From NCBI GenBank assembly GCA_023053685.1, contig JALIGW010000001.1:53689359-53753358 (forward strand): a stretch of 64,000 bases of DNA, written 5' to 3'. Position 1 is the stretch's first letter. Each line of letters begins with the position of its first letter. The notes beneath the pieces are model-generated. The model ran no database searches. It saw only the letters and a list, made by a program, of their open reading frames with translations, and was not told where the DNA came from. Of the stretch, positions 2,824-49,330 are shown one piece after another. The position numbers and the translations under genes are program-made. This stretch comes from Diadophis punctatus similis (lineage: Eukaryota > Chordata > Lepidosauria > Squamata > Dipsadidae).

Positions 2824-3133
2824 CAGGGGTGGGTTCCTGCGGTATGCTCTTACCTGTTGGTTGCCGCAGAACCGAAGAAGCTGGTGGCATTCGCGGCACG
2901 GGGCTTCCCCCGCCCGCTTTCCCCCACCCGCCTGGATGCCACCATTTGCGTTCTTTTGCCCTCTGCGCAAGCAGAATGCTTTGCGCATGCGCAGAGGGCA
3001 AAAGAACGCAAATGGCGGCATCTAGGCGGGCGGGGGAAAGCGGGCGGGGAAGCCCCGCGCCGTGAACACCACCGGCTTCTTTGGTTTTGCGGTGACCAAC
3101 AAGTAAGAGCGTACCGGCAGGAACCCACCCCTG
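2824..3133. mobile_element. Fold-back hAT MITE, 310 bp
   Basis: The element starts CAGGGGTGGGTTCCTGC and ends with the inverse. It is flanked by a perfect 8-bp TSD, ATTACAAT, at 2816-2823 and 3134-3141. Nearly the whole element is one palindrome whose arms meet around 2970-2980, so it would fold into a ~150-bp hairpin. It carries a perfect GCGCATGCGC motif near the centre (2983-2992). The reading frames found across it are shadows of the palindrome. The 8-bp TSD and CAG ends are hallmarks of the hAT superfamily. Confidence 0.93.
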
Positions 3134-3174
3134 ATTACAATGATGCAGATTTCAGTTCATCACCAAGAAAACTT

Positions 3175-3355: not shown

Positions 3356-3616
3356 TTTGTTCCCATGCATATATCAGTCAGATGAAGCATTATGCCTATC
3401 CTCAATGTTTTTAGGTGTGAGATTTCCCTCTATGATCTAGCATCGTAGTCTCTGTGGGTTCCATTGACAAACTGTTCAGGAGGAAGGGTGAAGTTAAATT
3501 TACTGCAGCCTCTAAAAGTAGATTCCTTGACAAGAAACGGCTACTTGCATGCACTTCTTCAGATTGAGCCAGGGGTGTATGACTTCAGACCATCTCATCT
3601 GGCTGATTGGGTACAG

Positions 3617-4287
3617 CAGTCCTTCTCAAATAGTGGTGTGCGCCCCCTGGGGGGGGGCTCGGAGCGATGCCAAGGGGCGCGTGTGACCCCGGGGAACATG
3701 TGTAATCCCTCTCGATTGATTCCCCCGGATGGGGAGTGTTTTCCCAGTTGCATGTTGCTCCGAACCCGGAAGAGAAGGCGGCCAGACGGGGCAGGGCAGC
3801 TGCGTGAGTTCTTGTTGTTCTCAGCGGGCGCCGTGGTAGCCATGAACAACATGGCAAACCTGCTGCTGGACAAGGAAGAGCATCCTCTGCAGCTGGGCGA
3901 AAGCTTCGAACAGCATCCTAAAGCCTCCTTCCACACCATTCGCTGTGAGTGCCCGGCAGAGGCGGCGCTTATGGGCCAGGCCGGTAATCCCAAAACATTG
4001 GCTTGATTAAGCTGGCTTGGCCCCGTGTCAAAAGAGGGCCCTAACCATGGTAGCCTATGCCTGCCTAACCGAAAACAGGCTCCACTGAATTCAGTGTGAC
4101 TTACTCCCAGGTAAGTGGGTAGAGCAGCCTTCCCTAGCCAATAGCTTGCTTGCAGTTTATAATAAGTAAAATAATAAATATTGACACTAAAATTCCATTG
4201 GGGCCCAGATCGGAGAGTTGGGGGCGCGCGAAATGTTTACTTCTTCCTGGGGGGGGGGGCGTAACAGAAAATAATTGAGAAGCACTG
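3617..4287. mobile_element. Charlie-like hAT carrying captured host sequence
   Basis: Left end CAGTCCTTCTCAAATAGTG, right end (inverse) CAGTGCTTCTCAATTATTTT. Flanks are GGGTACAG (3609-3616) and GGTTACAG (4288-4295), a 7/8 TSD. The first ~90 bp and last ~75 bp match the inverted ends of the copy at 22342-22916. That copy has a BED-finger transposase start at this place; here the interior (~3710-4205) is unrelated host-type DNA holding an EAF1-like first exon, its upstream GC-rich leader and the start of an intron. This is the architecture of a pack-type (transduplicating) non-autonomous element. Confidence 0.85.
3842..3944 (+). pseudogene. EAF1: Captured first coding exon of EAF1 (ELL-associated factor 1)
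   Basis: From the ATG at 3842 the frame is open for 34 codons. It starts [14 protein letters not shown] and continues through [19 protein letters not shown], then one base (T, 3944) before GTGAGT at 3945. EAF1 of vertebrates begins with M-N, A-N-x-L-L-D-x-E-E-H, L-G-E-S-F-E and A-S-F-H-T-I-R-Y-D, so about 25 of 34 positions agree. The split Tyr codon (T|AT) agrees with a phase-1 splice donor at this place. EAF1 is a cofactor of the ELL elongation factor in the nucleus. No later EAF1 exons follow; downstream is intron-like DNA and then the transposon end. It is therefore a fragment moved inside a hAT element, not the resident gene. EAF2 fits worse (different N-terminus). Confidence 0.85.
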
Positions 4288-4295
4288 GGTTACAG

Positions 4296-13205: not shown

Positions 13206-13710
13206 TGTGATATTATTTATTTTATTTATTTATTTAGCTGCATTTGTATGCCGCCCAACTCCCAGAGGACTCTGGGCAGCTTAACAACATTGCAAATACA
13301 AAATATAAAAACATTAAAACAAGTAAAAACATTTTAAAATCTCATACATATCCTTTCATGGCCGGATCTCGCCGATTATACCGTAGTTGCGAGATCAACG
13401 GCCTCAGGCCTGCCGGAAGAGCCAGGTCTTAAGAGCTTTTCGGAAGGCTAATAGGGTGGGGGCAGTCTGGATCTCTGGAGGTAGCTGGTTCCAGAGAGCC
13501 AGGGCAGCCACAGAGAAGGCCCTCCCCTGCGGGCCCGCCAGCCGACATTGTTTAGCTGACGGAACCTGGAGGAGACCAACTCTGTGGGATCTCACTGGTC
13601 GCTGGGAGCTATGTGGCAGAAGGCGGTCTCGATTACAGTTCTCAAAGCCCTGAACAGCTACTTTGTTGTTAAAAAATGTAGCTTTTCTGGCGCACAGCAC
13701 TGTACTCAAG
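13206..13710 (-). mobile_element. L2-group LINE 3' end, minus strand
   Basis: The minus strand from 13709 encodes the C-terminal signature of L2-group LINE reverse transcriptase proteins. It gives VGLLQVPSAKQCRLAGPQGR, AFSVAALALWNQLPPEIQTA and PTLLAFRKALKTWLFRQ, then a stop. The 3' UTR ends in an A-rich tract and (TTTA)n at 13210-13232, just beside the sequence TGCATTTGTATGCCGCCCAACTC, the usual squamate L2 tail. The C-terminal frame is intact over ~100 codons, so the insertion is fairly young, but the element is 5'-truncated. Confidence 0.8.
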
Positions 13711-13724
13711 CTTATGCAAATAAA

Positions 13725-14040
13725 TAAAGATACAATTTATTTATTTTTAAAATTTATAAGGCAACCACCTCAAATAATGTGACTCTTGGCAATGCAGCAC
13801 ATAAAAAAACCAAAAAAACAAAACCAAAAAAAAACCCCTCACCATATCACAGGATGCAATACAATATGGTAAATAAAAATCTAAAATGGTGACCAAGCAC
13901 ATACAAAACAGCCAACAATGGACTCTTACTCCATTGGCCCCTTATGCTGGGAGAACAATCAGGTCTTAGCAGCTTTCCTGAGGGCGAGCTGAGTTGAGGC
14001 CTGTTATATATCTGGGGGAGATCTACTGTAGAGGACTTAT
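13725..14040 (-). mobile_element. Second L2-group LINE 3' end, minus strand
   Basis: It repeats the layout of the neighbour: a TTTATTTATTT tail (13735-13748), GCAACCACCTCAAATAATG, an A-rich tract, then codons for an eroded KAAKT/RKAA tail (AGCAGCTTTCCTGAGGGCGAGC at about 13968). More decayed than 13206-13710. Confidence 0.55.
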
Positions 14041-22341: not shown

Positions 22342-22916
22342 CAGTGCTTCTCAATTATTTTCTGTTATGCCCCCCCTAGGAAGAAGTAAACATTTCACGC
22401 ACCCCCCAACTCTCCGCCGGGACAATTGTTTGCAATATTCGGCACGTTTTTGCTGAAAAAACTCAAGCGGCTTATCAGCGTGATTGGGGTGTAATGTGTT
22501 TAAGTGATGCCTTCATTTATTTGGCTTCATGCTGTCCGCTGCCAACATTTTTAGACACAGTAAACATACCGGTCTTTCCTCGTCTCCCACCATAGTCACA
22601 GTGAAGCCAAGCATTACATACGCTTCATCATATTTCCTTGTCTTAGCTTTCGGGAGACTTACGTTTGTCTCATTATCTCCGTCTCTCTCCTCCTTTCTTT
22701 TCATCCCTGTTAAATATTTTTCCATGGTGTCTCTTAAGGCTTTGTTATCTGCACTTCATATCTCCTGCTCTGTGCTGTGTGCTATTGTTCGGTGCAAAAA
22801 AACCCTACTCCCTGCGGCAAAAAAAAGCACGTTCCCCAGGATCACGCCCCCCTGGCATCGCTCCGCACCCCCCAGGGGGGCCCGCCCCACTATTTGAGAA
22901 ACACTGCCTTAATCAC
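22342..22916 (-). mobile_element. Charlie-like hAT, internally deleted, with a transposase start
   Basis: Left end CAGTGCTTCTCAATTATTTTC, right end (inverse) CAGTGTTTCTCAAATAGTGGG. Flanks CCTAAATC (22334-22341) and CCTTAATC (22917-22924) form a 7/8 TSD. Reading on the minus strand, a leader of ~180 bp leads to the ATG at 22725, then a BED zinc-finger region, after which the sequence jumps directly to the opposite end. It is the sister of the EAF1-carrying copy at 3617-4287. Confidence 0.87.
22513..22725 (-). pseudogene. hAT transposase N-terminus with BED finger, truncated
   Basis: The frame starts MEKYLTGMKRKEE and includes KYDEAYVMLGFTVT, then RPVCLLCLKMLAADSMKPNK, where the frame ends at TGA. 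Just past the stop the sequence still encodes RHHLNTLHPNHADKPLEFF, so C-x2-C and the H...H of a BED zinc finger are both visible. Charlie/ZBED5-type transposases share this N-terminus. The DDE catalytic domain and dimerisation region are absent. This is a DNA-binding-domain remnant, not a working gene. Confidence 0.8.
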
Positions 22917-24830: not shown

Positions 24831-25564
24831 CATTTTTTAAATTTATTTGTTTGTCAAACATGTACAAGATAGTACTGGTAGGTATTTGTATAAACATAAC
24901 ATAAGCAACGAAGTACAGATAAATGAGGACAATAGGACAATAAGACAGGAACGGTAGGCACAATGGTCTGCTTATGCATGCCCTTTACAGACCTCTTAGG
25001 AATGGGGTGAGGTCGACTGTAGACAGTCAAAGGTTAAAGTTTTGGGGGTTTGGGGAAGAAACCAGAGAGTCAGGTAGTGCATTCCAGGCATTGATCACTC
25101 TGTTGCTGAAGTCGTATTTTCTGCAGTCGAGTTTGGAGCGATTTACATTAAGTTTGTATCTATTGTGTGCTGTGTATTGTTGTGGTTGAAGCTGAAGTAA
25201 TCATTGACAGGAAGGACTTTTTGATATATGATTTTATGAACTACATTTAGATCAGATCGAAGGCAACGTAGTTCTAAATTATCTAATCCCAATAGTTCAA
25301 GTCTGGTGGAATAAGGTATTCTATTGCGAGCAGAGGAGTGGAGGACTCTTCTTGTGAAATATTTCTGGACTCTCTCGATTGTATTAATGTCCGATATGCA
25401 GTGCGGATTCCAGACAGGTGAGCTGTATTCAAGAATTGGTCTAGCAAATGTTTTGTATGCTCTGGTTAGCAGTGTAATATTGCCAGAGAAGAAGCTATGC
25501 AAGATTAGATTAACAACTCTTAGTGCCTTTTTGGCAATGTTGTTACAGTGGGCTCTGGCACTTA
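24831..25564 (-). mobile_element. CR1/Rex-like LINE, 3' part, minus strand
   Basis: The minus strand encodes the end of a non-LTR reverse transcriptase protein: RAHCNNIAKKALRVVNLI, then ARPILEYSSPVWNPHCISDI, NTIERVQKYFTRRVLHSSAR and RLELLGLDNLELRCLRSDLN. The R-P-x-L-E-Y-x-x-x-V-W-x-P and I-E-x-V-Q-x-x-F-T-(R/K)-R patterns are typical of this region. The 3' UTR ends in AAATAAAT-type repeats near 24840. Its upstream continuation is at 31048-31232, separated by a DNA transposon. Related copies are at 34866-35222 and 63204-64000. Confidence 0.8.
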
Positions 25565-26035
25565 CCGTATTTTTCGGAGTATAAGACGCACCGGAGTATA
25601 AGACGCACCTTAGTTTTGGGGGAGGAAAACAAGGAAAAAAGGCCTCTGCCTCCCAGCAATTTGCCAAACAGCAAACAGCAAACAGTACAGATGATATACA
25701 CTGTTTGCTGTGTATTTCTGTGCATGTGTGCTTGACCCATAGAAATAGCAAAGAATTGGAGAAATGTACATTATGGCAGTATATTAATCCCAGAAAGTTT
25801 TCTTAAATGTAATCACACTAACTCCTCCCAATGATTTAAATAGATCTACTCCAAACATGAATAAATCAGGGTTTCTCAGCTGCCTTCTTTTAATACTAAT
25901 ACTTAATACTAATACTTAATACTAAAACATGACATTTCAGATTATACTTTTACAGATCTTTAAAATTGATGTGGCTTTCTTAAGGTGACCAGATTTTAAA
26001 ATTGCTAAAGAGGGACACCATTGACCGGGGGGGGG

Positions 26036-30722: not shown

Positions 30723-31047
30723 ACTATAGCTTGCCTCCTTTCCATTTTAGCAGCCTAATATTGCCAGCAGTTTATCTCCCAGCAATTTGTCTCATCACAG
30801 CCACCGTAGTTAGTTTCATTTTACCACGTGGCTTGCAAGCCTCAGCTGTAGGTCGGGAAGCAGATAATCTCTTCTTGTGCTCTTCTTGTGCTTTGCCCTG
30901 TTTGCTGTAAAAAGGTAAATTGCTGGCAGGCAGAGGCCAAAGGGTGGGGGTGGCTGGGTGGGGCTGCATTCGGTGTATAAGACGCACCCAGGTTTTCACC
31001 CTCTTTTTGAGGGTAAAAAGGTGCGTCTTATACTCCGAAAAATACGG

Positions 31048-31232
31048 TAGGTGATTAGATATGAGTACTCCAAGGTCTTTGACAGAGTGAGGGTCGTCTA
31101 CAAGGTCGTGTCCTCCAAGTTTGTATTTTGTTTTCTGATTCTTTTTGCCAATGTGTAAGACAGAGCATTTGTTGGTTGAGATTTGAAGTTGCCAGTTGTT
31201 TGACCATTCTGATACATGGTCAAGGTCTTTTT
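31048..31232 (-). mobile_element. CR1/Rex-like LINE, upstream part of the copy at 24831
   Basis: The minus strand encodes LQKDLDHVSEWSNNWQLQIS, TNKCSVLHIGKKN and DDPHSVKDLGVLIS. This is the palm-to-thumb end of the reverse transcriptase, immediately upstream of the region encoded at 25564-24831. The junction falls at the TA target of the inserted DNA transposon. Confidence 0.8.
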
Positions 31233-32060
31233 GAAGGTAGAAAAATAAAGCATTGAAAGCAACGCCCAAAAGACCTGGAACCTACTGTATAATGAAAAAT
31301 GTAAACAGAAAGAGCTTGGGCACCTATCCTTAGGAGGAAAATGGAAGGAGGGGGAGACAAATGCTGCAGGTGAAATGGTGTTGAAAGGGAGGAAATGCTT
31401 TCTGAGGCCATGATTAGAATTATCTGGGTACTGTGTTGCCGGTAGGAGATCTCCTCAAGATGGGCAAAAATGTATTTACCCAAAGCATGATAATCTTGAT
31501 CAAGAGGGCTCAATGAATGATGAATGGAGAGATAAGGACTTCAGATAAAGACCTATGCATTCTGCAAGGAAGAAGAGTGTTACTTTAACGAGGCCTATTA
31601 AAACAACTTTAAAAAATCAAAACATTGTCTCATACAGTTCATGGCCTTTATTTTCCATATACTGGCTGCACATTGAAGAAAGGATCCTCACAATAATTTC
31701 ACAATAGAAGCAATGTATACAAAAAGGTGGTGTGCTAGGAATGATGAGTTCAAGCTGAAGGTTGAGAGCATTTTGTCAGGATTGATAAACTTCAATGTGC
31801 CCAGAAGAAAACAGCCAGGAAGATAAAAAGTTTGGTACCGGTAATTACTTTATGAGGAAAGGATGGGTATGCACTGGTTTAGAGAAAAGACGATGGTAGA
31901 GAGATATGATCATTGTTTTCGAGGCCCGTCATGTAGCAGACAGGGCGGAATTGTTCAAAGATGTTCTTGAAGACAGGACAAGAAAGAATTTAAATTAAAA
32001 GAAAGTAGATTTCAGTTGGAAATCTAATGGTAAAAGCTGTTCAACAAAAGAACAGCCTTA
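31233..32060. other. Intergenic; CR1-like scrap at about 31840-32000
   Basis: TTTAGAGAAAAGACGATGGTAGAGAGATATGATC resembles the 'LEKRRLRGDMI' block of CR1-group LINEs on the plus strand, strongly decayed. The rest is unassigned. Confidence 0.4.

Positions 32061-42808: not shown

Positions 42809-43108
<300 letters not shown>

Positions 43109-48865: not shown

Positions 48866-49330
<465 letters not shown>

Follow-up and report, generated by a model that had tools for sequence, protein, structure and literature searches.

Pieces of host genes enclosed by the ends of DNA transposons have been surveyed in 100 animal genomes, and the available text of that survey gives 370 Pack-TIRs, 208 of which are hAT elements (Tan et al. 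2021, PMC8277862). Nearly all of the animal cases are described there as single-copy, with four multicopy ones (1.4%), for instance of three and five copies. Because 208 of the 370 are hAT elements in the part of the survey available to us (PMC8277862), the statement in an earlier, sequence-only reading of the locus studied here that few vertebrate cases of gene capture are described is outdated. A captured gene start that has been both mobilised and amplified is known from Myotis bats, where the Helitron HelibatN3 took up the promoter, the coding start and the splice donor of NUBPL; the accessible sections of that paper also cite 15 genes whose captured promoters amount to 4,690 copies (PMC4778049). 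Among cut-and-paste elements, hATs of the Buster group, such as Mar, are described in the available text as leaving 8-bp target duplications of the form nnnTAnnn (PMC3517528). Here, we describe an element from the snake Diadophis punctatus similis which, with a probability of about 0.95, we read as one copy of a high-copy, non-autonomous snake hAT family, i.e. a pack-hAT, that carries DNA of the EAF1 gene.

The window, i.e. the whole stretch of 64,000 nucleotides that was analysed, holds DUSP10, with minus-strand coding exons at about 42812-43075 and at 48893-49132, and gave nothing in Rfam at gathering thresholds. The element occupies positions 3617-4287, antisense to DUSP10 and about 38.5 kb past its stop codon. 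It is a non-autonomous hAT element with inverted CAGT...ACTG termini, framed, as had been proposed, by an 8-bp target duplication matching at 7/8 positions (GGGTACAG at 3609-3616 and GGTTACAG at 4288-4295); 8-mers at least 7/8 alike at the spacing of the element occur at 33 of 63,313 window positions. All of its parts are given on the plus strand. An 83-bp hAT 5' end (3617-3699) and a 76-bp hAT 3' end (4212-4287), both with borders set by comparison with the resident gene and the former found family-wide, enclose a captured stretch of 512 bp (3700-4211). This middle part consists of the EAF1 upstream region and leader (3700-3841, corresponding to consensus positions 83-224 in the alignment to the resident gene), EAF1 exon 1 with its ATG start, 34 codons and an end in phase 1 (3842-3944), the splice donor GTGAGT, placed just as in the resident gene (3945-3950), and the start of EAF1 intron 1 (3945-4211). 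The claim of a host-type interior therefore holds in that the interior is EAF1 DNA, its interval being 3700-4211 by the comparison with the resident gene and not the 3710-4205 that had been suggested.

Both ends of the element derive from a single TIR element, a relative of which lies in the window as an internally shortened hAT without captured DNA (22342-22906, minus strand; duplication CCTAAATC/CCTTAATC). Positions 3616-3700 are 78.8% identical to the end of this sister over 85 aligned positions and 4211-4291 are 89.0% identical over 82, so that the ends are indeed related to those of the sister. The existence of the sister and the match of its ends had been recognised from the sequence, while its extent had been given as 22342-22916. 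Inside it lies an open piece of 70 codons (22516-22725, minus strand), which we take to resemble the start of a hAT transposase; its 70 residues had no match in Pfam. Other mobile DNA is present nearby. Window positions 2824-3133 hold a different element, a fold-back hAT-like insertion whose arms are long and inverted, whose inverted ends read CAGGGG...CCCCTG and which is framed by identical 8-bp ATTACAAT at 2816-2823 and 3134-3141, and the minus-strand open frames at 25143-25802, 30772-31281 and 13404-13736 resemble parts of LINE reverse transcriptase or LINE tails.

The exon in the window copy is undisrupted and leads into its GTGAGT donor, as had been noted. Its translation is identical to human EAF1 at 25 of 34 residues, the sole PDB match up to E = 1 (E 9.2e-11), and to eight squamate EAF1 proteins at 28-30 of 34, with 30/34 and four differing residues for Crotalus and Ahaetulla. 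The exon of the family consensus differs from the Crotalus and Ahaetulla proteins at one residue only (L7). A 37-residue query of the exon had no match in Pfam, and human EAF1 searched against the window recovered exon 1 but gave no credible match for any other exon; no EAF1 exon 2 was seen in the window, which is a DUSP10 locus. The observation of an EAF1 exon within a hAT element is confirmed, and its interpretation as a capture is supported.

A protein search with the sense frame returned EAF1 proteins, EAF1-exon frames, P0122 and P0129, the last of which is a zebra finch UniRef protein with the EAF1 N-terminus joined to Maturin, which may be a fusion or an error of the gene model. An antisense frame also spans most of the element, and a search with it gave two proteins, which we read as bird-like EAF1 antisense frames, and no additional family copy. 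P0122, from a contig of 1,007 bp, is colinear with the leader, the exon and part of the intron up to window position 4041 and carries part of an intron stretch that is absent from the resident EAF1; the window copy differs from it by at least 15 changes, up to 12 of which are C>T or G>A. We considered P0122 as a family copy and rejected it, as its residue 7 is P, against L7 in the consensus, and its GGGGC run is longer. No relatives of it were found in viral and genome contig collections, which were not built for snakes.

The internal host sequence has its parental copy elsewhere in the genome. A search of the host genome with the Crotalus EAF1 protein places the resident gene on contig C386, which is not the contig of the window, and yields five blocks, which cover residues 1-112 and 112-240 of 255 and are 87-99% identical to Crotalus and 87-100% to Ahaetulla, the block at 87% ending inside an intron. 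As expected by the sequence-only reading, the captured piece is colinear with this gene through the leader, the exon and parts of intron 1, at 93-100% in blocks and with indels. The 668-bp family consensus aligns at positions 83-349 (250/268 identical), 470-522 (52/53), 523-577 (55/55) and 576-594 (19/19); in total, 15 of 391 aligned positions differ (the blocks overlap by 2), namely 10/139 in the leader (consensus 83-224), 4/103 in the exon and 1/127 in the three intron blocks. At the resident locus (L056 6378-7062 on C386), exon 1 encodes L4 and S28, while the family, Crotalus and Ahaetulla have V4 and A28.

Between the aligned blocks, about 120 bp of the family's intron are missing from the resident gene, which in turn contains additional stretches of about 178 and 99 bp. 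Because of these indels, the captured 512 bp and the corresponding 684 bp of the resident gene (L056 6379-7062) fall outside a captured-to-parental length ratio of 80-120%, which in the available text of the survey is a search filter for young cases and not a definition (PMC8277862). With the resident span being longer and the ~120 bp missing from it, the exact template is therefore not seen in the host genome. The capture joints read GGGGAACAT/GCGTGG and CAGATC/GGAGAG, with microhomology between hAT and EAF1 of 2 bp (GC) at the first and 1 bp (C) at the second. The resident EAF1 diverges from the family sequence at the 3' capture joint, and, with regard to TEs within the 100 bp flanking the parental piece, its borders showed no hAT ends of the element's family.

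A search of the 419 contigs (1.78 Gb) of the host for the 3' capture joint, with a pattern of 31 bases and up to 3 mismatches, found it at 661 + 659 = 1,320 places, compared to 0 + 0 for the reversed pattern; this figure counts matches to the joint, leaves copies without the joint uncounted and was checked for full elements in samples. Three such samples were available. The best 40 of 2,638 first-look candidates, a set chosen for its match to the window copy (included) and therefore leaning towards intact copies, align nearly end to end (the window copy at 100%, the other 39 at 91-92%). A target duplication of at least 7/8 frames 37 of these 40 top-scoring copies, 35 of the 37 having a TA centre, and 3 have no clear one. 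The second sample came from the 143 best exon-1 matches to snake EAF1 (149 were listed, among them five exons of the resident EAF1 and one EAF2-like match that were set aside), which also lean to intact copies and of which ten are in the 40-copy set too; 26 were fetched and 25 analysed, 20 of them from the weaker-scoring part, and a duplication was seen in 17/25 (15 exact, 2 at a 1-bp shift) with no clear one in 8/25. One sequence, L058, is interrupted by N, and a 1,790-residue open frame among the EAF1 protein matches was discarded as an artefact of this N run.

The third sample consists of 80 copies picked by the joint alone, from 100 listed places that are all on contig C1 and have 0 mismatches, leaving out places already sampled and a few others. 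Both ends were present in 67 of them and, allowing shifts of up to 2 bp, a duplication in 61 of those 67; 19 of the 80 have no clear duplication, and some of the duplication-less copies are truncated. The prediction that many copies would share the same hAT/EAF1 joints within different target duplications was thus borne out, at 1,320 joints and with duplications in 37/40, 17/25 and 61/80 of the sampled copies. The 40 copies differ from their consensus by 3.9% on average, the window copy by 5.4%, and their tree is a star in which none of the 37 inner branches reaches the support mark (the bootstrap being not settled). The simplest reading of these sequences is that the capture would have taken place shortly before a burst, here or in a near ancestor.

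Not all copies carry the EAF1 exon. In ten of the 80 joint-picked copies (L089, L111, L112, L129, L140, L146, L147, L149, L155 and L158), one shared piece of about 82 bp (e.g. L112:461-542) takes the place of consensus positions 145 to ~317, and all ten have the two hAT ends and a duplication matching at 7/8 or 8/8. The consensus of the swapped copies, MLLRQLLPGIAASQEAGWAAGRPLLLRPFA, has a new ATG and is open to the same GTGAGT, ending in phase 0 instead of phase 1. The frame is open and followed by a GTGAGT donor in seven of the ten; the donor is gone from L111, the frame is broken in L147, and L158 has neither. The swapped piece has no PDB match, and neither the window nor the resident EAF1 locus gave more than chance-level similarity to it; it may be the first exon of another gene or filler with a chance ATG. 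In either case, the cargo of the element was changed and its spread continued. In two further joint-picked copies, L095 and L102, which have both ends and a 7/8 duplication, much of the captured part has given way to different sequence, which may be nested repeats or further replacements.

In comparison to the published systems, the snake family resembles the animal pack-hATs in having hAT ends around a piece of a host gene, microhomology at the joints, target duplications and exonic pieces, and differs from what the available text says of them in that the joint occurs at 1,320 places and a subfamily has changed its cargo (PMC8277862). As far as the accessible part of the work on HelibatN3 goes, a promoter, the start of a coding sequence and a donor were captured and amplified in both cases, although the snake family is a cut-and-paste hAT and HelibatN3 a Helitron, the latter with six codons and documented transcripts, the former with 34 codons and known from DNA alone (PMC4778049). 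Of these systems, HelibatN3 with NUBPL is the closest working counterpart. The snake element has target duplications and inverted CAGT...ACTG ends. Helitrons, in contrast, are not known to have target duplications or terminal inverted repeats. The TA-centred 8-bp duplications (35/37) are like those of Buster-group hATs such as Mar, which in the available text is a deletion derivative without a piece of a host gene (PMC3517528); judged by the centre of the target site only, the snake family appears to be of the Buster type. Our literature search, for which subscription papers were mostly out of reach, found no record of a high-copy vertebrate pack-hAT beyond the survey (PMC8277862) and nothing useful on EAF1/METTL6 and a shared promoter. 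Within that same reach, more than 1,000 joints with leader, exon and donor, together with a change of cargo, go beyond the published descriptions that we found.

How the family may have arisen can be outlined from these observations. The 2-bp and 1-bp microhomology at the joints suggests that a hAT ancestor broke internally and that the break was mended through a template switch into EAF1. A putative transposase of another element would then have moved the composite in trans, with most copies probably born in one burst. A subfamily received a different ATG-bearing piece in place of the EAF1 exon, kept the leader and donor and spread too. It is instead very improbable that an old, immobile hAT was patched once with EAF1 DNA in place and never moved. 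According to the available text of the survey (PMC8277862), single-copy cases usually arise by such gap filling, which also fits the short microhomology, but the occurrence of one joint at 1,320 places and the separate target duplications refute it as the whole story; it may nevertheless have been the first step of the capture. That a segmental duplication or an EAF1 retrocopy spread the exon, the hAT ends being incidental, is hardly credible and already refuted: no observation was found that speaks for it, the captured piece contains upstream and intron sequence, the borders of the resident gene have no hAT ends, and both the target duplications and the borders of the copies are found at the hAT ends. 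A capture in another squamate lineage followed by horizontal transfer into the host snake seems quite improbable to us: the V4 and A28 shared by the family with Crotalus and Ahaetulla, against L4 and S28 in the resident gene, and the lack of part of the captured intron in the latter speak for it, whereas the family differs from the resident gene at only 1 of 127 positions in the three intron blocks and V4 and A28 can be ancestral.

A further question is whether the family of mobile EAF1 copies is in use, i.e. whether the EAF1 or the swapped exon serves as the first exon of transcripts spliced into host genes, which we regard as possible if on balance rather unlikely. The exon is present in one block in 61 of the 80 joint-picked copies, 46 of which keep the ATG, the open frame and the GT donor, as do 36 of the 40 best-matching copies (a set leaning to intact ones); 19 of the 80 were unscored, ten being swapped and nine truncated or interrupted. 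Scaled to 1,320, the 46/80 would give about 750 open-exon copies, an extrapolation from a one-contig sample. These numbers favour use, as do the seven of ten swapped copies with ATG, frame and donor and the bat HelibatN3, which in the accessible part of its description does so with a comparable cassette (PMC4778049). Against it, there are 43, 32 and 50 changes at the three codon positions (about 1,358 sites each) and non-CpG change per site is 0.0127 in the exon vs 0.0119 in the intron, so that, taken over the family, the sequences give no indication of constraint on the protein. Furthermore, CpG transitions in the leader reach 0.157 and other transitions 0.0154, much as in the hAT 5' end (0.186 vs 0.0252) and as would be expected of methylated DNA, a pattern which the C>T and G>A changes of the window copy fit, and among 22 protein matches (102-324 residues) the 20 inspected are all without the L7 of the family. 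As the exon drifts as if neutral and the CpG sites decay as if methylated, a function is unproven, and the window copy itself looks like a decaying relic. By analogy, an open-exon copy landing in sense in a gene could possibly act as a promoter or first-exon trap. The wider idea of a modular mobile first-exon cassette, with EAF1 leader and donor, at least one exon swap and more than 1,000 sites, some copies of which start chimeric transcripts or proteins in the host snake and its relatives, we consider unlikely.

The animal pack-hATs are described, in the available text, as nearly all single, stationary repairs (PMC8277862), and the family found here stands in contrast to them. With an EAF1 promoter region, first exon and donor at more than 1,000 places, it could hand new first exons to genes. 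It also lets one ask, in a natural setting and on a large scale, whether the first exons of vertebrate genes are shuffled by cut-and-paste transposons as they are by Helitrons in bats. The swapped subfamily illustrates that a moving element is able to change its cargo and go on spreading. Furthermore, the dispersed copies of the EAF1 upstream region form a natural set for studying the silencing of a mobile promoter.
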